Assembly: GCA_903842455.1 (NCBI GenBank)
Contig: CAIMLX010000205.1
Coordinates: 62,001 to 126,000, forward strand
Length of the DNA: 64,000 bases
Reading direction: 5' to 3'
DNA from: an uncultured Hyphomicrobiales bacterium
GTDB taxonomy: Bacteria > Pseudomonadota > Alphaproteobacteria > Rhizobiales > Devosiaceae
Below are positions 20,523-30,046 of this stretch, one piece after another (position 1 is the stretch's first letter; each line of letters opens with the position of its first letter). The notes below the pieces were generated by a model that ran no database searches, was not told the DNA's origin, and was given only the letters and a program-made list of their open reading frames with translations. The position numbers and the translations under genes were made by a program.

Positions 20523-21359
20523 TCAGCCCGTCACGATTTCGGTGTCGTCCCGGCCACCCCATTCGGCCCACGAGCCGTCGTAGAGGATGACGTCGCGGGC
20601 GCCTGCCTGCTCCAGCGCGAGCTTGAGGGTGGCGGCGGTGACGCCGGAGCCGCAGGTGGTGACGATCGGCTTGGTCAGGTCGATGCCGGCGGCGGCGAAC
20701 TGGGCTTTCAGCGTGTCGGGCGACTTGAGCCGGCCGTTTTCGACGAGGGTCGTGGCGGGAGCCGAGATGGCGTTCGGCATGTGGCCGGACCTGAGGCCGG
20801 GGCGGGGTTCCGCGTCGGTGCCGGCAAAGCGGCCGGCGGGTCGGGCGTCGATGATCTGGCGGTGGCCGGTGCGGACGAGGGCCTGCATGTCGGCGAGCAG
20901 GGCGACGCGACCGGGGTCGAAGTCGGCGTTGAAGCTGGTCGCGGGGCGCGCGACTTCCGCGGTTTCGAGCGGGCGGTTCTCGGCGCGCCAGGCGGGGAGG
21001 CCGCCCGAGAGGATGCGCACGTCTTTGGCGCCCATGACGGCAAAGGTCCAGCGGACGCGGGGAGCCGAGGAGAGGCCGGCGCCATCGTAGACCACGATGG
21101 TATCGGTGTCGGCGACGCCGAGGCGGCCGGCGAGGGCGGCGAAGTCGGCAGGCGGCATCAGCATGTGGGGCAGGGGCGTCGATAGATCAGCGTACTGATC
21201 GACATCGAACCAGATGGCGCCGGGGATGTGGCCGGCGAGATACTCGGCGCGCGGGTCGCGGGCGAGGGCGGGCAGATACCAGCTGCCATCGACGACGACG
21301 ACGTCGGGATCGTTGAGGTGGTCGGCGAGCCAGGCGGGGGTGACGAAGGGGGTGGTCAT
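20523..21359 (-). CDS. sseA: 3-mercaptopyruvate/thiosulfate sulfurtransferase
   Basis: 278 residues with two rhodanese domains. The N-terminal inactive domain is near 10-125 (DGSWYLPALARDPRAEYLAG, HIPGAIWFDVDQYADLSTPL). The catalytic domain is near 150-275, with the active-site loop in VTTCGSGVTAATL; Cys is near residue 234. A CGSGVTA loop is typical of mercaptopyruvate sulfurtransferases rather than thiosulfate-specific rhodaneses. It transfers sulfane sulfur to thiols or cyanide in the cytosol. ATG at 21359 begins right before the first domain. It is divergent from rsgA. Confidence 0.9.
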   Translation of the reverse strand: MTTPFVTPAWLADHLNDPDVVVVDGSWYLPALARDPRAEYLAGHIPGAIWFDVDQYADLSTPLPHMLMPPADFAALAGRLGVADTDTIVVYDGAGLSSAPRVRWTFAVMGAKDVRILSGGLPAWRAENRPLETAEVARPATSFNADFDPGRVALLADMQALVRTGHRQIIDARPAGRFAGTDAEPRPGLRSGHMPNAISAPATTLVENGRLKSPDTLKAQFAAAGIDLTKPIVTTCGSGVTAATLKLALEQAGARDVILYDGSWAEWGGRDDTEIVTG

Positions 21360-21488
21360 GGCGGTGGTCCTGATTTCTGCGCGCAGCGTAGTCAGGTTCG
21401 GCGCCGGACGGAAGGCATCGAGCGGGTTTGACAGGGACGCGGCGCGGGAGTTAACTGGTGCTTCGCCGCGCAACAGAGGAGGCGTCCG

Positions 21489-21595: not shown

Positions 21596-22669
21596 TTGCT
21601 CAAACAGTTTGGCTGGAGCGATGCGCTTCAGCAGCAATTTGCCATGCATGCCGCCGCGGGACTGGTCCCGGCGCGGGTCGTCGTGCAGCAGCGCGGTCTC
21701 TATGAAATCGCAACCGAAGCCGGGGAGCTTCACGCCACGCTAGCCGGCCGGCTCGCCTATGAGGCCGAGGAGGGGGATTACCCCGTCACCGGCGACTGGG
21801 TCGCCGTGCTGGCGCGTCCCGATGAGGGGGGCGCGACGATCCAGCACGTGCTGCCGCGCAGCAGCAGTTTCGTCCGCCGCGCCAGTGGTCCGGGGATGGC
21901 CCGGCAGCAGGTGGTGGCGGCCAATGTCGACGTGGCGCTGCTCGCCGCCTCGATGAATGCCGACCTCAATCCCCGGCGGATCGAACGCTACCTGGCAACG
22001 GCGTGGGAGAGCGGCGCGCAGCCGGTCGTCGTGCTGACCAAGGCCGACATGTGCGCGGACGCAGAGGAGCGCATCGGCGAGATCGAGGCGGTGGCGATGG
22101 GGGCGCCGGTGGTGGCGGTATCGGCAGTGACGGGGGCCGGGCTGGATGAACTGCGCGCCTATCTCAGCCCCGGTCGCACCGCCGTGCTGCTCGGCAGCTC
22201 CGGTGTCGGCAAATCGACGCTGGTCAACGCGCTGGCCGGGCGCTTGCAGATGGCGACGCAGGCGATCCGCGAGGACGATGCCCGCGGCCGCCACACGACG
22301 ACGCACCGCGAACTGGTGTTGCTGCCGGGCGGCGCGCTGATCCTCGATACGCCCGGCATGCGTGAACTCGGCCTGTGGGACGCGGGCGACGGCATGTCGA
22401 CGGCCTTTTCCGACATCGAGGCGCTGGCAGCGCAGTGCCGGTTCCACGACTGCCGGCACGAGAGCGAACCCGGCTGCGCGGTTGCCGCGGCGCTGGAGGG
22501 CGGGACGCTCGATGCGGCGCGCTGGCGTGCCTGGGGCAAGCTGCAGCGTGAGCTGGCGTTTCAGCACAACAAGGACGACCCGCGGGCGCACGCGGCAAGC
22601 CGGAAGGTGTGGGTGCAGCGCAGCAAGCGCAATCGCGCCGAGACGAAGCATCGGCAGCGGTATGAGTGA
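21596..22669 (+). CDS. rsgA: Ribosome small-subunit-dependent GTPase A
   Basis: 357 residues from a TTG start with AAGGA 10 nt upstream. An N-terminal OB-fold (about 1-95) is followed by a circularly permuted GTPase domain: the G4 motif TKAD near residue 148 comes before the G1 motif LLGSSGVGKSTLVNAL near 199, then G3 in ILDTPGMRELGLWDAG. The C-terminal zinc knuckle is CRFHDCRHESEPGC. RsgA acts late in 30S ribosomal subunit maturation. The basic C-terminus (KVWVQRSKRNRAETKHRQRY) is usual. All key motifs are intact. Confidence 0.94.
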   Translation: MLKQFGWSDALQQQFAMHAAAGLVPARVVVQQRGLYEIATEAGELHATLAGRLAYEAEEGDYPVTGDWVAVLARPDEGGATIQHVLPRSSSFVRRASGPGMARQQVVAANVDVALLAASMNADLNPRRIERYLATAWESGAQPVVVLTKADMCADAEERIGEIEAVAMGAPVVAVSAVTGAGLDELRAYLSPGRTAVLLGSSGVGKSTLVNALAGRLQMATQAIREDDARGRHTTTHRELVLLPGGALILDTPGMRELGLWDAGDGMSTAFSDIEALAAQCRFHDCRHESEPGCAVAAALEGGTLDAARWRAWGKLQRELAFQHNKDDPRAHAASRKVWVQRSKRNRAETKHRQRYE

Positions 22670-22694
22670 GGGAGTGGTGGGGCGTGTGGTCGTT

Positions 22695-22765
22695 GTGCCT
22701 GTACCGTACTGCCCCCTCCACCAAGCTTCGCTTGGTCCCCCTTCCCCGCCAACGCGGTGGAGGAC
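22695..22765. repeat. Short palindromic intergenic repeat
   Basis: CCCTCCACC, the small hairpin AAGCTTCGCTTGG, and GGTGGAGG further on form an imperfect inverted repeat between the convergent rsgA and sulfatase genes. It resembles fragments of the larger repeats at 24.4 and 51.7 kb. Confidence 0.45.
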
Positions 22766-22779
22766 CACCAGTGGCCCCG

Positions 22780-24297
22780 TCAGGGCTTTGTCGTGACAAC
22801 GCCCTCGGGCGTCAATTCCTTCAGGGCGAGGGTCTGGTCGAGGTGGGTGGCGCGCCAGCGCAGCAGGCGCTCGGCCATCTCGATGCGGGTGCGGAGGTGG
22901 GCCGGGTCCTCGGCGAGGTTCACACGGTTTTCGGGGTCGCGCTCGAGGTCGAAGAGCAGTGGGGGCAGGGTGGGGAAGTGGACGTATTTCCACTTCGCGG
23001 TGCGGGTGACGGAGAGGTTGAGTTCGGTGGAGCGGGCTTCAAACCAGCTTTCGGCAAACTGGCTGGCAACCTCGCGGAAGTCGAACTCCCAATGCACGGC
23101 GTCGCGCCAGCGCGGCGGGGTCGCCGCATCCTGCAGGAAGGGTTCGAGGGATCGGCCGTCGGGCTGGTGCAAGGCCTCGACGTCCATCGCTTCAAGCAGG
23201 GTGGGGAAGAGGTCGACGGCCTCGGTGAAGTCGGTGACCTTGCGGCCGAGCGCGTCCTGCCGGGGGTCGCGGATGATCAGTGGGATGTGCTGGGACTGGT
23301 CAAAGTAGCCGCCCTTGCCGAGGGCGAAGTGGTCGCCGAGCATTTCGGCGTGATCGGAGGTGAAGACGATGAAGGTGTCGTCCCACTCGCCGCGCTCGGT
23401 GATGGCGTCGAAGACGCGGCCGAGCTGGGCGTCCACCTCGGCGATCATGCCGTAGTAGGTGGCCTTGATCTGGCGGAACTCGGCGTCGGTGATTTTGGCA
23501 ACGCGGCTGGTGGCGCCGGGGATGAAGTGGTCGGTGGTGGCGGTATCGAGGAAGTAATCCATCAGCGGATGGCCGCTGGCCTCGGCGCGGCGGCTTTCGG
23601 CGCGGGCGAAACCATCGACTTCGTCGGGCGCGAACAGGGTGTTGTAAGGCGCGGGCACGATGAAGGGCGGGTGCGGGCGGATGTAGCTCAGGTGGGCGAA
23701 CCAGGGGCGCTCGCCGACCTGTTCCTCGAGCCAGCGCAGGAACTCGCCGGTGAGGAAGGCGGTCTGGGTCTGGTCGGCGCTGTAGGCAGGCGGGGCGCTG
23801 GTGATGCGGCCGGGTTCGACGCCGACGGGCAGGTGAGCTTCGGCGTTGTCGCCGAACTTCAGGCCCTGCGGGGCGAGCCAGCTGAGCCAGGGCCGCTCGT
23901 GCTCGGGCAGCTTCACCCGTGTGGTGAAGCCGGGGAGGACGCATTCGTAGGAGGTGAGGTCGGGATCCTTGGGGTATCGGCCGGTGGGATCGAGCGAGAC
24001 GTCGGTGTAGCCGAACAGCGTCGGATCGTAGCCGGCGCGGCGGGCGGCCTTGGCGATGTTGTCGAAGCGGTTCGCCAGCGGAGTGCCGTTGCGGACCACG
24101 CGGTTGTTCATCTGGTAGAGGCCGGTATAGAGCGCGGCGCGGGCCGGCGAGCACGGGGCGGCCTGAGAGAAGTGGTTCAGGAAGGCGACGCCGTCGGCGG
24201 CCAGCGCATCAAGGTTCGGGGTCCTGACGTGCGGGTGGCCGGCATACCCGGTGGCGGAACCGCGCCACTGGTCGGCTGTGATGAAGAGGATGTTCAT
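22780..24297 (-). CDS. Sulfatase-superfamily hydrolase, phosphonate monoester hydrolase (PehA)-like
   Basis: 505 residues. The formylglycine motif CSPAR is at residues 49-53 (SQAAPCSPARAALYTGLYQM). Metal ligands lie in FITADQWRG at the N-terminus and IVFTSDHAEMLGDH in the middle. Sequence features shared with rhizobial and Burkholderia phosphonate monoester hydrolases include RRAGYDPTLFGYTD, HLSYIRPHPPFIVPAPYN, and near the end KYVHFPTLPPLLFDLERDP. These enzymes cleave phosphonate monoesters, phosphodiesters and some sulfates. No signal peptide is seen, so substrates would be imported. It is the last gene of the ABC importer unit that begins with a PhoB box, which favours phosphorus over sulfur esters. 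Confidence 0.8.
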   Translation of the reverse strand: MNILFITADQWRGSATGYAGHPHVRTPNLDALAADGVAFLNHFSQAAPCSPARAALYTGLYQMNNRVVRNGTPLANRFDNIAKAARRAGYDPTLFGYTDVSLDPTGRYPKDPDLTSYECVLPGFTTRVKLPEHERPWLSWLAPQGLKFGDNAEAHLPVGVEPGRITSAPPAYSADQTQTAFLTGEFLRWLEEQVGERPWFAHLSYIRPHPPFIVPAPYNTLFAPDEVDGFARAESRRAEASGHPLMDYFLDTATTDHFIPGATSRVAKITDAEFRQIKATYYGMIAEVDAQLGRVFDAITERGEWDDTFIVFTSDHAEMLGDHFALGKGGYFDQSQHIPLIIRDPRQDALGRKVTDFTEAVDLFPTLLEAMDVEALHQPDGRSLEPFLQDAATPPRWRDAVHWEFDFREVASQFAESWFEARSTELNLSVTRTAKWKYVHFPTLPPLLFDLERDPENRVNLAEDPAHLRTRIEMAERLLRWRATHLDQTLALKELTPEGVVTTKP

Positions 24298-24317
24298 GGG
24301 TCGCCCGTGTTCGATTG

Positions 24318-24502
24318 CATCCGATAACCCCCTCTCCTCAGTTTCGCTAGGCGGCAAGCCGCCAAGCTTCACTATCCTCCCCCGCCGAGGGGGAGGAGAC
24401 GAACACTCTACGTGGCGCCTCCATCACCTCCTCGCCCCTTGCGGGAGAGGATAGCGGAGCTTGTGAGCGTAGCGAGCTAGCGAAGCTGAGGAGAGTGGGC
24501 CA
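24318..24502. repeat. Large inverted intergenic repeat (RIME-like), copy 2
   Basis: CCCCTCTCCTCAGTTTCGCTAG at the left pairs imperfectly with CTAGCGAAGCTGAGGAGAG at the right. Inner arms around 24372-24392 and 24424-24450 are also inverted. The loop again reads CGAACACTC followed by CTCCATCACCTCC, as in the copy at 20.4 kb, so the two belong to one family. It lies between the sulfatase and the ABC ATPase, both on the minus strand. Confidence 0.7.
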
Positions 24503-24508
24503 TAGCGC

Positions 24509-25576
24509 TCAACTGCCGAGAACGAGGACGTCGGACGACGCGATGCCAAGGCGGACAGGGGTGCCGTGAGTGGGCGGTGGCGTGCGCTGGTCGTTGAAGG
24601 TGTCGAGGCTGATGGTGTTGCCGCCGAGGTCGACCTTGAGGCGGATGACGGAGCCGAGGAAGTGGACTTCGGCCACCCTGCCTTCGAGCTGGATGTCGCG
24701 GCCGGTGACGTCGGACAGCGAGACGGCCTCGGGGCGCATGGTCAGCGCGATCGCCTCGCCGGTGCGGGCGGTTGCCGGCAGGGCGGGGATGGTGACGGTG
24801 GAGGCGCCGATCTGCACCGACTTGCGGCCGGCATCGGCGACGGTGGCGTTCAGCGTGTTGAGCTGGCCGACGAAGGTGGCGACGAAGCGGGTCTGCGGGC
24901 GGTTGTAGATCTCGAACGGCGCGCCGAACTGCTCGACATTGCCGGCATTCATCACGACGATGCGGTCGGAGATCGACAGCGCCTCTTCCTGGTCATGTGT
25001 GACGAAGACGGTGGTGATGCCGAGCTCGCGCTGGATCTCGCGGATCTGCTCGCGCAGCGAGACACGAATCTTGGCGTCGAGGGCGGAAAGCGGCTCGTCG
25101 AGCAGCAGCATGCGCGGGCTGGGCGCCAGGGCACGGGCGAGGGCGACGCGCTGCTGCTGGCCGCCCGACAGCTCGAACGGGAAGCGTTTGCCGTAGCCGG
25201 TGAGGCCGATCAGCTTCAGCATCTCCTCGACCCGGGCCTCGCGTTGCGCCCGGGGCACGTTGGCGATCTTCAGCCCGAAACCGACATTGTCGGCGACGTT
25301 CATATTGGGGAACAGCGCGTAGGCCTGGAACACCATGCCGATCTGGCGCTTGTTCGGCGCCAGCGTAGTGATGTCGTGCCCGTCGACGGTGATGCTGCCG
25401 CTCGTCGGCTTCTCGAAGCCGGCGATCATCCGGAGGATCGTGGTCTTGCCGCAGCCCGACGGGCCGAGCAGCGTGACGAACTCGCCCTGGTTGAAGCTCA
25501 CGTCGACGCCCTTCACCACCTGGTTTGTCCCGAAGGCCTTCACCAGCTTGTCGATGCGGAGAAACTCTGCGGCCAT
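24509..25576 (-). CDS. ABC importer ATP-binding protein (PotA/FbpC/PhnT class)
   Basis: 355 residues. The nucleotide-binding domain has Walker A LLGPSGCGKTTILRMIAG near residue 37, a Q-loop (GMVFQAYALFPNM), signature LSGGQQQRVALARALA, Walker B MLLLDEPLSALDAKIR and an H-loop (VFVTHDQEEALSISDR). The C-terminal TOBE-like region (about 245-355) is typical of importers for spermidine, ferric iron and aminoethylphosphonate. It follows the second permease after 20 nt. The neighbouring hydrolase and PhoB box suggest an organophosphorus substrate; the class alone cannot tell. Confidence 0.9.
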   Translation of the reverse strand: MAAEFLRIDKLVKAFGTNQVVKGVDVSFNQGEFVTLLGPSGCGKTTILRMIAGFEKPTSGSITVDGHDITTLAPNKRQIGMVFQAYALFPNMNVADNVGFGLKIANVPRAQREARVEEMLKLIGLTGYGKRFPFELSGGQQQRVALARALAPSPRMLLLDEPLSALDAKIRVSLREQIREIQRELGITTVFVTHDQEEALSISDRIVVMNAGNVEQFGAPFEIYNRPQTRFVATFVGQLNTLNATVADAGRKSVQIGASTVTIPALPATARTGEAIALTMRPEAVSLSDVTGRDIQLEGRVAEVHFLGSVIRLKVDLGGNTISLDTFNDQRTPPPTHGTPVRLGIASSDVLVLGS

Positions 25577-25596
25577 TCGATCGGTCCTTGCGGGCG

Positions 25597-26400
25597 TCAC
25601 TCTTTGCGAGCGGTCTTGGGGGCGAAACGGGCGAGCAACTGGATCATGCCCATCGCGCCCCAGGTGATGACAAAGGAGATCACGGCCAGCGCCGCAGGCT
25701 CGAAGGCCCGGTTGGCGCCGACATTCTGCATGTAGACGCCGAACACCTGCTGGTTGAGCAGGCTCGCGATGGTGAATTCGCCGATGACGATGGCGAGCGT
25801 CAGGAACGCACCGGACAGCACCGCCACGACGATGTTGGGCAGGATCACCTGCGCCAGGATGGCAAACTGGTTGGCGCCGAGGATGGTGGCCGCTTCGGTC
25901 AGCGTCTGGACGTCGATGGTGCGGAGGCCGGTGTCGATGGCGCGGTACATGTAGGGCAGGCCGAGGGCCACGTAGGCGAAGGTGAGCAGGATCGGGCCGC
26001 CGATATACTGACCGCCGACCTGCCAGCCCAGCAAGGGCAGCCAGGAGCTCGAGCTGTAGAGCCGGATATAACCGAAGACGAGAATGATGGCCGGGATGAT
26101 CAGCGGCAGCAGCGTCACGAACTCGACCAGCGGGCGCAACTGCGGCAGGCGCAGGCGCACGTAGTAGGCGGCGGGCAGCACGATGAAGATGCCGACAAGG
26201 ATCGTCGTCAGCCCGATGAAGATCGAATAGGAGAACGTCTGCTGGAAGCGCGGATCGGCCAGCACGTTCAGGTAGGCATCGAGCGAGTAGGTGCCGCGGC
26301 GGATGCGCAGCGAGAAATCGACAGTGGCGATCAGCGGCAGCAGGAAGTAGAGCGCCGCCAGCCCGAACACGACCCAGGCCCATGGCTTGCCGCGGGTCAT
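25597..26400 (-). CDS. ABC importer permease (PotC/PhnV class)
   Basis: 267 residues with about six membrane helices, beginning WAWVVFGLAALYFLLPLIAT. The EAA loop that contacts the ATPase is recognisable (TLTEAATILGANQFAILAQV). The start ATG overlaps the stop of the upstream permease gene as ATGA, so the two are translated together. It forms the second half of a heterodimeric channel with the protein encoded at 26397-27308. Confidence 0.9.
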   Translation of the reverse strand: MTRGKPWAWVVFGLAALYFLLPLIATVDFSLRIRRGTYSLDAYLNVLADPRFQQTFSYSIFIGLTTILVGIFIVLPAAYYVRLRLPQLRPLVEFVTLLPLIIPAIILVFGYIRLYSSSSWLPLLGWQVGGQYIGGPILLTFAYVALGLPYMYRAIDTGLRTIDVQTLTEAATILGANQFAILAQVILPNIVVAVLSGAFLTLAIVIGEFTIASLLNQQVFGVYMQNVGANRAFEPAALAVISFVITWGAMGMIQLLARFAPKTARKE

Positions 26401-27308
26401 TTCAGCCACCTCTCGGCCCGCGCCCGGATAACGAGGTAGATGACATTGGCCAGTGCCGTGACGACGATCATGCCGAGGGCCAGCGCTGCGCCGAGGCCCG
26501 GGTTTTGCAGCACGTCGCCGCGGATCTGGGCGTAGAGCAGGATGGGAACGATGTTCAGCGACGAACCGGTCAGCGCGTAGGCGGTGGCGATGGCGCCGAA
26601 GGCGTTGGCGAACAGCAGCGACAGCGTCCCGAGCAGGTTCGGCCACAGCACCGGCAGCCCGATATAGCGCCAGAACTGGTACGGCGTCGCGCCCAGGGTG
26701 GCGGCCGCCTCGCCCCATTCCTTCTTCAGCCCGTCGATGGCGGGCGCGATGATCAGGACCATCAGCGGAATCTGGAAGTACAGGTAGGTGATGGTGAGGC
26801 CCCAGAAGCTCAGCAGGTTGAAGCCCGACCGGTAGAGGTCGATGCCGAACACGGTCTTGAGGATCACCGTCACGAGGCCAAGCCGGCCGAGCGTCGAGAG
26901 GAAGGCGAAGGCGAGCGGAATGCCGGCGAAGTTGGAGGCGACGCCCGAGAAGGTCATCACCGTCGAGCGGATCGATTCGGGCAGTTTTCCGCGAATGATG
27001 GCGAGCGCGATGATCAGCCCGATCACGGCGCCAATGGCGGCCGAGGCGGCGGAGATGCGCAGCGAAATCGAGAAGGAGCTGACGATCTGCGGCTGACTCA
27101 GATCGACGATGTTCTGCAGCGTGAAGCCGCCGTCGGGACCGACGAACGCCTGCACGACGAGGCCGAGGGTCGGCAGGATCAGGAACAGGATCGCGAAGGC
27201 GACAAAGGGCGCAACGCCCAGCAGCGCCGTCAGCGTGCCGCCCGACAGGCCGGAGCGGACACGCCGCCAGAATGGCATGGCCGGCCCGGTTTGCACCGGG
27301 TCGGCCAT
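26397..27308 (-). CDS. ABC importer permease (PotB/PhnU class)
   Basis: 303 residues, six predicted helices; the first is TALLGVAPFVAFAILFLILP and a periplasmic loop follows. The EAA loop reads WGEAAATLGATPYQFWRYIG. ATG at 27308 is 19 nt after the binding-protein stop; a second in-frame ATG at 27278 (MPFWRR) would shorten it by ten residues. It partners the other permease. Confidence 0.9.
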   Translation of the reverse strand: MADPVQTGPAMPFWRRVRSGLSGGTLTALLGVAPFVAFAILFLILPTLGLVVQAFVGPDGGFTLQNIVDLSQPQIVSSFSISLRISAASAAIGAVIGLIIALAIIRGKLPESIRSTVMTFSGVASNFAGIPLAFAFLSTLGRLGLVTVILKTVFGIDLYRSGFNLLSFWGLTITYLYFQIPLMVLIIAPAIDGLKKEWGEAAATLGATPYQFWRYIGLPVLWPNLLGTLSLLFANAFGAIATAYALTGSSLNIVPILLYAQIRGDVLQNPGLGAALALGMIVVTALANVIYLVIRARAERWLK

Positions 27309-27327
27309 TGCGGCTTGGGTCAAGCCG

Positions 27328-28437
27328 TTATTCGGCAACGTTGGCCCCAACGACTGCGTCCCACTGGCCGGTGATCACGGCCTTGGCGGCATTCTGTTCC
27401 TCGATCGAGGGGAACACGGCCTTGGCGTAGTTCTCGGCGGGCGGCAGGGCGTCGAGCAGATCCTGCGGGATCTTGCCCTGCTCGGCGAGCGCGTTGAAGC
27501 GGATCGGGTGGCAGTAGCCCTTCAGCCAGCCGAGCTGGCCTTCGTCGGAGTAGAGGTATTCCATCCACAGCTTGGCGGCGTTCGGATGCGGCGCGTAGGC
27601 GCTGATGGCCTGCACGTACACACCGGCGACGACGCTGTCGGTCGGCACCACGACTTCGGCAGCGGGGTTGCCCGCAAAGCCATCGCGCCAGGCGAGGACG
27701 TTGTAGTCCCAGGCGACGACGATCGGGGTGGTACCCTGGGCGACGGATGCCGCCTTGCCGATGACAGGCACGAAGTTGCCCTTGGCGTTCAGGTCCTTGA
27801 AGTAGGCGAGGCCGGCATTGGCCGCCGACTCGGCATCGGTACCGCCATTGGCGAGACCGGCGCCGTAGACGCCCTGGATGGCCTGGTTCGAGGCGCGCGG
27901 ATCACCGGCGAGGGCGACCGAGTTGGCGTATTCGGGCTTCTGCAGGTCGGCCCAGCTGGTGGGGACGGCCGAAACCAGATCAGTGTTCACGAGGAACGAC
28001 AGCACGCCGTAGTAGTCGCCGTACCAGAAGCCCTCTTCGTCCTTGGCCTCGGCCGGGATCTCGTCCCAGGTCGATACCTTGTAGGCCTGCAGCAGGCCTT
28101 CTTCCTTGGCCTGCGGGCCGAAGCTGAGGCCGATGTCGAGGACGTCGGGCGCCTGCGGACCGGTATTGTCCTTGTTGGCGCGCACGGCCTCGAGTTCGTC
28201 GGCGGAGCCGGCGTCGGGGTTCAGCTCGTTGACGGTGATGCCCGGATACTTGGCCTTGAAGCCGGCGATGACTTCGCCGTAGCCGCACCAGTTGTGGGGC
28301 AGGGCGATGGTGGTCAGCATGCCTTCGGCCTTGGCTGCCTCGTAGAGGGCGGCGAGGTCGGTCTGCGCCATCGAGGCGGTCGAAGCGAGCATCGCGACGA
28401 CGGACACCGAGGCGGCAAACGCGTTCTTCATGATCAT
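27328..28437 (-). CDS. Periplasmic substrate-binding protein of a phosphate-regulated ABC importer
   Basis: 369 residues with a clear signal peptide (residues 1-25, ending ASTASMAQ). The mature part is a family-1 solute-binding protein of the PotD/AfuA/PhnS kind (LPHNWCGYGEVIAGFKAKYP, WYGDYYGVLSFLVNTDLVSA, MEYLYSDEGQLGWLKGYCHP). ATG at 28437 has AGGGAGA 6 nt upstream; another ATG lies two codons in. It is the first gene of the unit, with a PhoB box about 80 nt upstream. Ligand is not known; phosphonates or phosphodiesters are the best guess from context. Confidence 0.88.
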   Translation of the reverse strand: MIMKNAFAASVSVVAMLASTASMAQTDLAALYEAAKAEGMLTTIALPHNWCGYGEVIAGFKAKYPGITVNELNPDAGSADELEAVRANKDNTGPQAPDVLDIGLSFGPQAKEEGLLQAYKVSTWDEIPAEAKDEEGFWYGDYYGVLSFLVNTDLVSAVPTSWADLQKPEYANSVALAGDPRASNQAIQGVYGAGLANGGTDAESAANAGLAYFKDLNAKGNFVPVIGKAASVAQGTTPIVVAWDYNVLAWRDGFAGNPAAEVVVPTDSVVAGVYVQAISAYAPHPNAAKLWMEYLYSDEGQLGWLKGYCHPIRFNALAEQGKIPQDLLDALPPAENYAKAVFPSIEEQNAAKAVITGQWDAVVGANVAE

Positions 28438-28514
28438 TTGCGTCTCCCTGGAGATTTAGGCTTCTGTCCCGCCTTGCGGAGGCCCCAAAGCCGCGCTCCA
28501 CCTAGTTCGGCCAT

Positions 28515-28532
28515 GTGACAGGCACATGACAG
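28515..28532 (-). promoter_or_regulatory. PhoB box upstream of the ABC importer/hydrolase unit
   Basis: On the minus strand CTGTCAT (28532-28526), spacer GTGC, CTGTCAC (28521-28515): two 7-bp direct repeats with a 4-nt spacer, one base from the rhizobial Pho box CTGTCAT-N4-CTGTCAT. It lies 78 nt upstream of the binding-protein start, in the correct orientation for activation. Confidence 0.75.
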
Positions 28533-28589
28533 CCCCCGGCGCCGTCCCACGGGCGACGAGGCTGAAAGCGGCGCAGGCGCGCGGCTTTA

Positions 28590-28774
28590 CCCGGTGTTGC
28601 GGCTGTGTCAGGCCCCCCAAGCCGATTGTGACAATTGTGACAGTGCCCGGTTTGACATCGGGAGTCGAGATGGGCCGCTTGCCAGAGATTAGAGCGGTTC
28701 CAGACTGCGACGATATTTCTTGATGACCGTACTCCACTTTGATAGGCCGCCCGGTATTGCGGCTGTGACGGGCC
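28590..28774 (+). repeat. 25-nt direct repeat pair in the importer/irpA intergenic region
   Basis: CCCGGTGTTGCGGCTGTG followed by TCAGGCC (28590-28614), and CCCGGTATTGCGGCTGTG followed by ACGGGCC (28750-28774), match at 22 of 25 positions, 160 bp apart. They flank the Irr-like box. The rest of this 355-bp gene-free stretch holds only the PhoB box and a TTGTGACAA-TTGTGACA tandem at about 28624-28641. Confidence 0.6.
28690..28706 (+). promoter_or_regulatory. Irr-box (iron control element)-like palindrome upstream of the imelysin operon
   Basis: TTAGAG-CGG-TTCCAGA resembles the rhizobial iron control element TTTAGAA-N3-TTCTAAA at 10 of the 13 fixed positions compared. It lies 87 nt upstream of the imelysin start at 28793. 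Confidence 0.5.
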
Positions 28775-28792
28775 GGCTTGGAGATTCCATAC

Positions 28793-30046
28793 ATGAAGAC
28801 GATCAGCACACTGGCCCTCGCCGCAGGTATGGTGGCGGCCGGGGCGGGCGCGGCTTTCGCGCAGGGGGCGAGCAGCGACGCTATCCTCAGGACTTACGCG
28901 GACATTGCGCTGGCCGGCTACGAGGACGCGCTGACGACCGCCAGGGCGCTCGACGCGGCAACCAATGCACTGATCGCTAATCCGTCGGACGAGACGCTCT
29001 TGGCGGCGCGTGCGGCGTGGATCGCCTCGCGGCCGAGCTACCAGCAGACCGAGGCGTTCCGCTTCGGCAACGCCGTTGTCGATGCGTGGGAGGGCAAGGT
29101 GAACGCCTGGCCGCTCGACGAGGGGCTGATCGACTACGTGGATGCCAGCTATGGCGCCGAGAGCGACGCGAACGGGCTCTACACCGCCAACGTGATCGCC
29201 AACCCGAAGCTCAGCATCGACGGGCAGGAGGTCGACGCGACCGAGATCACCCCCGAGTTCCTCGCCAGCACGCTGCAGGAAGCGGGCGGCATCGAGAGCA
29301 ACGTGGCGACCGGGTATCACGCCGTCGAGTTCCTGCTGTGGGGGCAAGACCTGAACGGCACGGGGCCGGGGGCCGGGCAGCGGCCGTTCACCGACTATTC
29401 GACCGAGGCGAACGCAGCGCGGCGCGGGCAATATCTCGACGCGGCGACCGACCTGCTGGTGACCGATCTCGAGGAGATGGTGGCCGCATGGGCCGAGGGC
29501 GGCGAGGCGCGGACGGCGCTTGGCGAGTCAGGGCTGTCGACCATCCTCACCGGCATGGGCTCGCTGTCGTTCGGCGAACTGGCGGGCGAGCGGATGAAGC
29601 TCGGCCTGCTGCTGCATGACCCGGAAGAGGAGCACGACTGCTTCTCGGACAACACCCACGCCTCGCACCTGAACGACGGCATCGGCATCCGCAACGTTTA
29701 CCTCGGCCGGTATGTGCGGGTGGATGGGTCGGTGGTGGAAGGCCCGTCGATCTCGGCGCTGGTCGCGGCCAAGGACGCGAAGCTCGATGCGGAAGTCCGG
29801 TCGCAGCTCGACGACTCGGTCGCCAAGCTGCAGGCGGTGGCCGACCGGGCCGCTGGCGGCGAGGCCTATGACCAGCAGATCGGCGAAGGCAATGTCGAGG
29901 GCAACGCTACCGTGCAGGCCGCGATCGATGCGCTGATCGCACAGACGCGCGGCGTGGAGCGGGCGGTGGCGCTGCTCGACCTCGGCGATGCCGTGACGAT
30001 CGAACAATCCGACAGCCTGACCAATCCGGATGCGGTGTTCGAGTAA
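28793..30046 (+). CDS. irpA: Imelysin-family (M75) periplasmic protein, IrpA-like
   Basis: 417 residues with a signal peptide ending AGAGAAFAQ. The M75 signature GYHAVEFLLWGQ (GxHxxE) is near residue 173. Further family stretches are QTEAFRFGNAVVDAWEGKVN and EEEHDCFSDNTHASHLNDGI. Imelysin proteins are iron-regulated periplasmic or outer-membrane proteins; binding of iron or haem at the GxHxxE site is suspected, and peptidase activity is doubtful. It is the first gene of a four-gene iron-linked operon. ATG at 28793 has TTGGAGA about 10 nt upstream; an in-frame TTG at 28778 would remove that site. Confidence 0.88.
   Translation: MKTISTLALAAGMVAAGAGAAFAQGASSDAILRTYADIALAGYEDALTTARALDAATNALIANPSDETLLAARAAWIASRPSYQQTEAFRFGNAVVDAWEGKVNAWPLDEGLIDYVDASYGAESDANGLYTANVIANPKLSIDGQEVDATEITPEFLASTLQEAGGIESNVATGYHAVEFLLWGQDLNGTGPGAGQRPFTDYSTEANAARRGQYLDAATDLLVTDLEEMVAAWAEGGEARTALGESGLSTILTGMGSLSFGELAGERMKLGLLLHDPEEEHDCFSDNTHASHLNDGIGIRNVYLGRYVRVDGSVVEGPSISALVAAKDAKLDAEVRSQLDDSVAKLQAVADRAAGGEAYDQQIGEGNVEGNATVQAAIDALIAQTRGVERAVALLDLGDAVTIEQSDSLTNPDAVFE

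Follow-up and report, generated by a model that had tools for sequence, protein, structure and literature searches.

What does the ATP-binding cassette (ABC) importer encoded at positions 22780 to 28532 of this DNA carry, and why does its gene cluster end in an enzyme of the sulfatase family? The stretch, hereafter the window, comprises 64,000 nucleotides of contig CAIMLX010000205.1 from an uncultured Hyphomicrobiales bacterium of the Devosiaceae (GCA_903842455.1), and the cluster is read on its minus strand in the order solute-binding protein (SBP), two permeases, ATPase and hydrolase. The initial annotation proposed a phosphate-starvation unit that imports an organophosphorus ester and cleaves it in the cytosol. 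This is supported by the conservation of a Pho box, the signature residues of the hydrolase, the tight packing of the genes and the recurrent pairing of importer and hydrolase; the ligand we infer. The five genes probably constitute a PhoB-controlled phosphate-starvation operon that takes up a small phosphonate monoester or phosphodiester and hydrolyses it in the cytosol.

The Pho box, CTGTCAT-GTGC-CTGTCAC (CTGTCATGTGCCTGTCAC), lies at 28515..28532 on the minus strand, 77 bases from the ATG of the SBP gene (28437), and reads in the operon direction. It had been described as a near-exact box in activating orientation; it is in fact an exact match to the pattern, and the sole site with 0 mismatches in the 4.56-Mb genome, which also encodes PhoB (349 bits, cut-off 296). 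There is one further match in the window at up to 3 mismatches, and it has 3. By inspection, a CTAGGT follows nine bases 3' of the box and is a possible weak -10 element. Genome-wide the pattern has 27 sites at up to 2 mismatches and a reversed-pattern control 14, which means that about half of the sites at this level are noise. The contig with phoB also has a weak site (L012), which precedes the gene of a PhoR-like kinase (308 bits, cut-off 334), and one of two 1-mismatch sites, L002, adjoins a gene of the major facilitator superfamily. At the other (L003/L026, G000:C271:10229-10257) three Pho-box half units stand in tandem before a gene; a phytase-like identity of the gene after L003 was considered and dropped, since it has no Pfam match and NCBIfam gives only a choice-of-anchor I model below the cut-off.

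Conservation of the box at orthologous loci had been set beforehand as a test of the proposal, and the box is present at most of them. We searched the 250 bp upstream of 80 orthologous SBP genes on the same strand, and found an exact box in 6; 23 have a box at up to 1 mismatch, 49 at up to 2 and 65 at up to 3. For the same limits dinucleotide shuffles give 0, 0, 0.03 and 1.4, and 0, 1, 2 and 5 loci have a box on the opposite strand. (Locus counts are without L037, L038 and L053, which duplicate L170, L171 and L173.) The boxes at up to 2 mismatches are also constant in position, 48 of the 49 sitting 50-89 bp before the aligned SBP start, and tandem units (at least two, with an 11-bp period) occur in 48/80 loci compared to 3/80 in one shuffle. 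The reversed pattern was found in 3, 6, 10 and 28 of the 80 loci at up to 0, 1, 2 and 3 mismatches, but they cannot serve as an independent control, since tandem 11-bp units fit the reversed pattern too. Eight loci of the hydrolase clade hold both the SBP promoter and the hydrolase (the window, L170, L171, L173, L174, L176, L177 and L178), and in each of them the SBP promoter has the only site of the locus at up to 1 mismatch. No box was found at the window hydrolase itself (best 4 mismatches in the 400 bp searched).

The hydrolase gene (22780..24297, minus strand) encodes a PF00884 protein of the alkaline phosphatase (AP) superfamily, with 505 amino acids counted from the ATG at 24297, in an open reading frame that opens at a GTG at 24372. 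It was expected to be a PehA-like member of the sulfatase family with a formylglycine motif. The family and the motif CxPxR stand, the latter as C74-S-P-A-R78 (25 is to be subtracted from residue numbers here for numbering from the ATG), and the genome encodes the formylglycine maturase family (FGE-sulfatase PF03781, 119.6 bits, cut-off 23.3). As an assignment to PehA proper the label failed, the equivalog NF045661 being the best NCBIfam model at 525.3 bits but under its cut-off of 900, and the signature residues sharpen it to a D-type phosphonate monoester hydrolase (PMH). Choline sulfatase and arylsulfatase models miss their cut-offs (161.5 of 433 and 216 of 481 bits), and PF01663 is matched weakly, as befits a superfamily member (27 bits). 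The best match in the PDB, at 616 bits and almost full length, is 4uph, an enzyme named ArPMH in the part of PMC12421950 that we draw on; it is followed by the PMHs 2w8s (397), 2vqr (396) and 4upk (346), and further down by 4upl (230), 4upi (196) and choline sulfatases (about 116 or less). For ArPMH, the parts of PMC12421950 and PMC5488252 used here mention no transporter or regulation. Identity to the PehA proteins of R. leguminosarum (RlPMH; pRL90232, 2VQR) is ~40%, and the pehA gene on pRL9 is likewise placed between ABC transporters.

The active site was read from an alignment with 2w8s (BcPMH, where position 57 is the formylglycine, printed as G) as D34, Q35, C74, S75, P76, R78, N95, Y122, D124, H234, D340, H341 and K353, of which D34, Q35, D340 and H341 are the Asp, Gln, Asp and His of the metal site; the list of catalytic positions, save Y105 and T107, is what we take to be the accepted one. 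The checked residues agree with BcPMH except at Thr107, the position where the T-type PMHs (RlPMH and BcPMH) have Thr and the window enzyme has Asp. Its Lys-A position is thus Tyr (Y122) and its His-A position Asp (D124), as in ArPMH. An excerpt of PMC5488252 gives Lys and His for arylsulfatases where PMHs show Tyr together with mostly Asp, or Thr as in RlPMH, and following this the window enzyme is by signature a D-type PMH/phosphodiesterase. The residue equivalent to His-A is Asp in 62 of the 64 rows of the alignment, Thr in one and a gap in one (three rows are duplicates). By inspection the protein begins at its first strand without a signal peptide, and it should therefore be cytosolic.

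The SBP (27328..28437, minus strand; SBP_bac_6, PF13343, 98 bits) is presumed to be periplasmic, and its N-terminus resembles a signal peptide on inspection; it is 99% identical to the SBP of a metagenome-assembled genome of Devosia equisanguinis. The permeases A (26397..27350) and B (25597..26400), both on the minus strand with BPD_transp_1 matches, overlap by 4 bp. The frame of permease A opens at a TTG at 27350, and judged by inspection an internal ATG at ~27308 is the likelier start. The ATPase (24509..25579, minus strand) has a TOBE_2 domain. The importer had been assigned to the class that includes aminoethylphosphonate (AEP) systems, and this is true as far as the best models go, but their scores are below the cut-offs: 62.9 of 310 for the SBP, and for the ATPase 426.6 of 457.7 (PhnT2, its best) and 316.7 of 499.15 (PhnT). 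The classes of SBP, permease and ATPase are those of the AEP importers PhnSTUV and AepXVW.

The structure model of the SBP (pLDDT 87) has as its nearest fold 5t1p of Campylobacter jejuni, which is also the nearest solved structure in the sequence search. After it come 4r6y (named AEP-binding), 8x1a (glucose-6-phosphate), 6wce (named pyridoxal-phosphate binding) and AfuA (hexose phosphates), and binders of polyamines, iron and citrate are placed after or among the organophosphate binders, which are ahead of the iron binders. The likeness to the hexose-phosphate importer AfuABC is one of both fold and sequence of the SBP (4r72-4r75), at ~21-22% identity in the structural match. The protein in 5t1p we take to be Cj0727. 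A comparative table of C. jejuni, in the part of PMC2292242 used here, labels the Cj0727-Cj0755 block as 'Phosphate regulated genes; iron uptake; ...'.

The cargo is further indicated by more distant relatives of the SBP. On one plasmid of P. aeruginosa and one of E. faecium, SBPs of 36-39% identity share an operon with a phosphodiesterase of PF01663, in the order SBP, phosphodiesterase, two permeases and ATPase (L239 1047-6237; L240 5875-10466); the former has a HAD phosphatase in addition, the latter does not. These phosphodiesterases belong to the AP superfamily as the window hydrolase does, but they are PF01663 proteins and not formylglycine enzymes. Among the plasmid records with an SBP match, 177/280 are from Enterococcus. 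Near the gene of an R. leguminosarum relative (58%) the other strand encodes a PF01663 protein, which gave no significant similarity to the window hydrolase in BLAST, and no PF01663 gene was found at the SBP loci of a Meiothermus relative (48%) and S. meliloti. The Pho box is mixed in this distant group, with 2 mismatches in L239 (1 on the other strand), 3 in L235 and L241, and 5 in L238 and L240. Two distant branches of the AP superfamily thus adjoin one importer family, which is a strong sign that the cargo would be a phosphorus ester.

Are the hydrolase and the importer transcribed together? Between the ATPase stop and the hydrolase start lies an intercistronic stretch of 211 nt (24298..24508, minus strand) with inverted repeats, which folds as a long hairpin (-122.6 kcal/mol, z -8.4). 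It had been called a RIME-like repeat; the repeat-like character is real, but the RIME label is not confirmed, as 22400-28800 gave no match to an Rfam family at or above its gathering score. Terminator-like or promoter-like matches were not found in the 211 nt. In 9 of 11 same-strand relatives the aligned hydrolase start follows 1-39 bp after the ATPase stop (L170 30, L173 3, L174 24, L175 39, L176 5, L177 2, L178 1, L191 29 and L182 11 bp), and the long gaps of L179 (125 bp), the window (211 bp) and L171 (265 bp) are apparently filled by repeat sequence. A tight operon looks like the ancestral arrangement and the hairpin of the window like a later insertion, which might modulate transcription but probably does not end it, and a single transcript over the five genes would be expected.

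The pairing was surveyed in two samples. Among 136 genomes of the family, with both proteins at E <=1e-30, a relative of the hydrolase is found in 36 and the SBP in 76. Eight of the 11 hydrolases at >=63% identity adjoin the SBP; in L175 and L179 the ATPase adjoins the hydrolase and the SBP is on another contig. The hydrolase of L179 (G085:C167:499-2014), the nearest relative, is in two overlapping pieces in different frames, either by a frameshift or by an assembly error in a fragmented genome. In eight genomes the best hydrolase is only 47-49% identical and is not beside the orthologous importer, and that of G091 lies beside an SBP paralog of 32-34%. Hydrolases of this class adjoin, in some Devosia (L181, L184 and L185), genes of a dipeptide importer and a HAD-IIA phosphatase (TIGR01459). 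Among 397 genomes of the order (hydrolase E <=1e-110, SBP E <=1e-30), 69 have the hydrolase, 117 the SBP and 32 both, an odds ratio of 2.5 (p 0.001) that is uncorrected for relatedness. The pairing recurs outside the Devosia clade of the window, in L182, L190 and L191. In the hydrolase tree, which has a midpoint root and leaves out the split L179, the SBP label requires at least four changes on the starred branches, which implies more than one origin of the pairing or repeated losses.

What would become of the product? We examined 60 hydrolase loci, 20 from the family search and 40 from the order search. Phosphonoacetaldehyde hydrolase, PhnX, is found in 11 of them, and the same search gave no PhnX or PhnW in the 80 SBP loci. 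The PhnX-associated loci have PhnW in 6 cases, the flavin adenine dinucleotide-dependent (FAD) oxidase TIGR03364 in 5 and a dipeptide-type permease in 7, and one (L203) has a PotD-like importer, which occurs in six hydrolase loci altogether. The loci where a D-type PMH-like 'sulfatase' stands with PhnX are L189, L198, L200, L203, L209, L212-L215, L217 and L220, and we put these clusters forward as candidate AEP-ester utilisation clusters of Hyphomicrobiales. A Pho box with 1 mismatch lies 49 bp before the hydrolase in L201, and one lies before the importer gene in L222. In the tree, the window clade (10 rows) groups at 100/98 with a set of 17 rows that includes 9 of the 11 PhnX-associated enzymes; the set by itself is weakly supported (83/58). 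PhnX as the partner in the window genome was rejected (best match 44.8 bits, cut-off 220), and PhnX is above the cut-off in 1/19 genomes of the genus. The window genome has PhnJ of the carbon-phosphorus (C-P) lyase above the cut-off, and PhnJ or PhnX is present in 9/10 genus genomes with a close hydrolase.

The operon could thus work as follows. At low phosphate, PhoB would bind the box at 28515-28532 and switch on the SBP, the two permeases, the ATPase and the hydrolase. In the periplasm a small, anionic ester of phosphorus would be captured by the SBP, and the importer would move it to the cytosol, where the formylglycine enzyme, a D-type PMH lacking a signal peptide, would cleave it. From a phosphonate ester a free phosphonate would be released and then broken by the C-P lyase of the genome; alternatively, a phosphodiester would yield a monoester for ordinary phosphatases. 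We infer the binding of PhoB, the single transcript, the order of the steps and the ligand, including the choice between phosphonate ester and phosphodiester.

Several observations weigh against this scheme, and some of them suit other explanations. The box is not universal: 15/80 SBP loci have none at up to 3 mismatches, mostly Rhodobacterales-, Kaistia- or Bosea-like but with one Devosia geojensis (L030) among them, and the pairs outside the clade have a weaker box or none, with 2 mismatches at 263 bp in L190, 3 mismatches at 74 bp in L191 and none at the SBP gene in L182 (best 6 mismatches). The genome G090 has the pair but neither PhnJ nor PhnX above the cut-off, which counts against an obligatory phosphonate product there and keeps phosphodiesters a live alternative. 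The hydrolase is also an uncommon companion, being within only 3/80 SBP loci, and of the 32 genomes of the order with both, the pair is adjacent only in G252 (divergent), G386 (same operon) and the window; in L172 (G102) a close hydrolase is located away from the importer. The importer does not, then, need this hydrolase. It could be an AfuA- or PhnS-like system for the general uptake of phosphate monoesters or free phosphonates, to which the hydrolase was added later in few lineages for another substrate of the same regulon, and the nearest functionally named structures do bind monoesters or AEP. We find this rather unlikely, as the pairing has recurred in three loci besides the Devosia clade, as ATPase and hydrolase genes are spaced by as little as 1-39 bp, and as the two plasmid relatives of the SBP pair with a phosphodiesterase of another family.

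It has to be considered too that the importer may carry ferric iron or an iron chelate, with the hydrolase as an unrelated neighbour. SMc04316 and SMc04317 of S. meliloti, which are likely orthologs of the importer genes, are in excerpts of PMC8829014 highly induced core genes of phosphate stress, in an operon with a Pho box and predicted to be for iron transport, and SMc04317 is described as iron transport in the portions cited of both PMC8829014 and PMC2848018. No hydrolase adjoins the S. meliloti ortholog of the operon (L064, L235), unlike in the window, and in strain Ak57 a TonB siderophore receptor lies downstream. In the window, the divergent neighbour of the SBP gene encodes an imelysin M75 protein and is followed by a di-haem oxidoreductase gene. 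By sequence, 6hhb and 6fjl, named Fe3+ transport components, are second and third to the SBP. These two score ~50 bits mainly over its first half, however, just ahead of 6wce and AfuA, imelysin is in only 12/80 SBP loci, and the conserved Pho box, the lead of organophosphate binders by fold and the recurrent pairing with AP-superfamily phosphodiesterases make iron an improbable cargo. The sulfatase fold could instead suggest import and cleavage of a sulfate ester for sulfur nutrition, with the adjoining 3-mercaptopyruvate sulfurtransferase-like (rhodanese) gene (20523..21416, minus strand; Pfam and NCBIfam matches) as part of the unit; such a gene is in 19/80 SBP loci and 9/60 hydrolase loci. 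We give this very little credence, given the Tyr and Asp of PMHs instead of the Lys and His of arylsulfatases, the Pho box, and the related enzymes that sit with PhnX. The sulfurtransferase was dropped as a partner and is read as synteny within Devosia, since in 14 hydrolase-free Devosia loci it comes directly after the ATPase gene.

These hydrolase-free loci are L032, L034, L035, L036, L039, L040, L046, L051, L057, L058, L066, L067, L076 and L090. On the other side of the operon, between the SBP and imelysin genes, there is a direct repeat, TTGTGACAATTGTGACA, at window 28626-28642; on the other strand, CTGTCACAATTGTCACAA is also present in L028, L036 and L041. It is possibly a second regulator site that serves the divergent imelysin gene.

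The regulon, the importer class and the enzyme class were each known before, and what is new, as far as we have searched, is their joining and the natural role that it implies; we found no report in the open-licence literature that links a PMH to an importer or to phnWX. In the parts of the sources used here, PMHs are studied for catalytic promiscuity with nitrophenyl model substrates (PMC5488252), and alkaline-phosphatase-like enzymes are postulated to open the phosphonate esters of marine polysaccharides, with a PMH-annotated gene in 7/8 Sulfitobacter genomes (PMC5649143). We tentatively extend the scheme, to a hypothesis that we would not yet call probable, in which phosphonate monoesters, for instance AEP esters from phosphonolipids or phosphonoglycans, are first imported and then hydrolysed, with D-type PMHs as the cytosolic half of the route. 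In Devosia the route would run from a PhoB-controlled importer, the relatives of which are annotated as iron transport, to the C-P lyase, and in related lineages from other importers to PhnW/PhnX. These promiscuous 'sulfatases' would thereby gain a class of natural substrates.

The phosphate-regulated importer next to one PMH, together with genes for AEP degradation next to its relatives, points to a real nutrient that can be put to the test. Two kinds of annotation would also be corrected: the 'iron' importer is probably a rhizobial phosphate-stress operon, and the 'sulfatases' would be hydrolases of organophosphorus esters.

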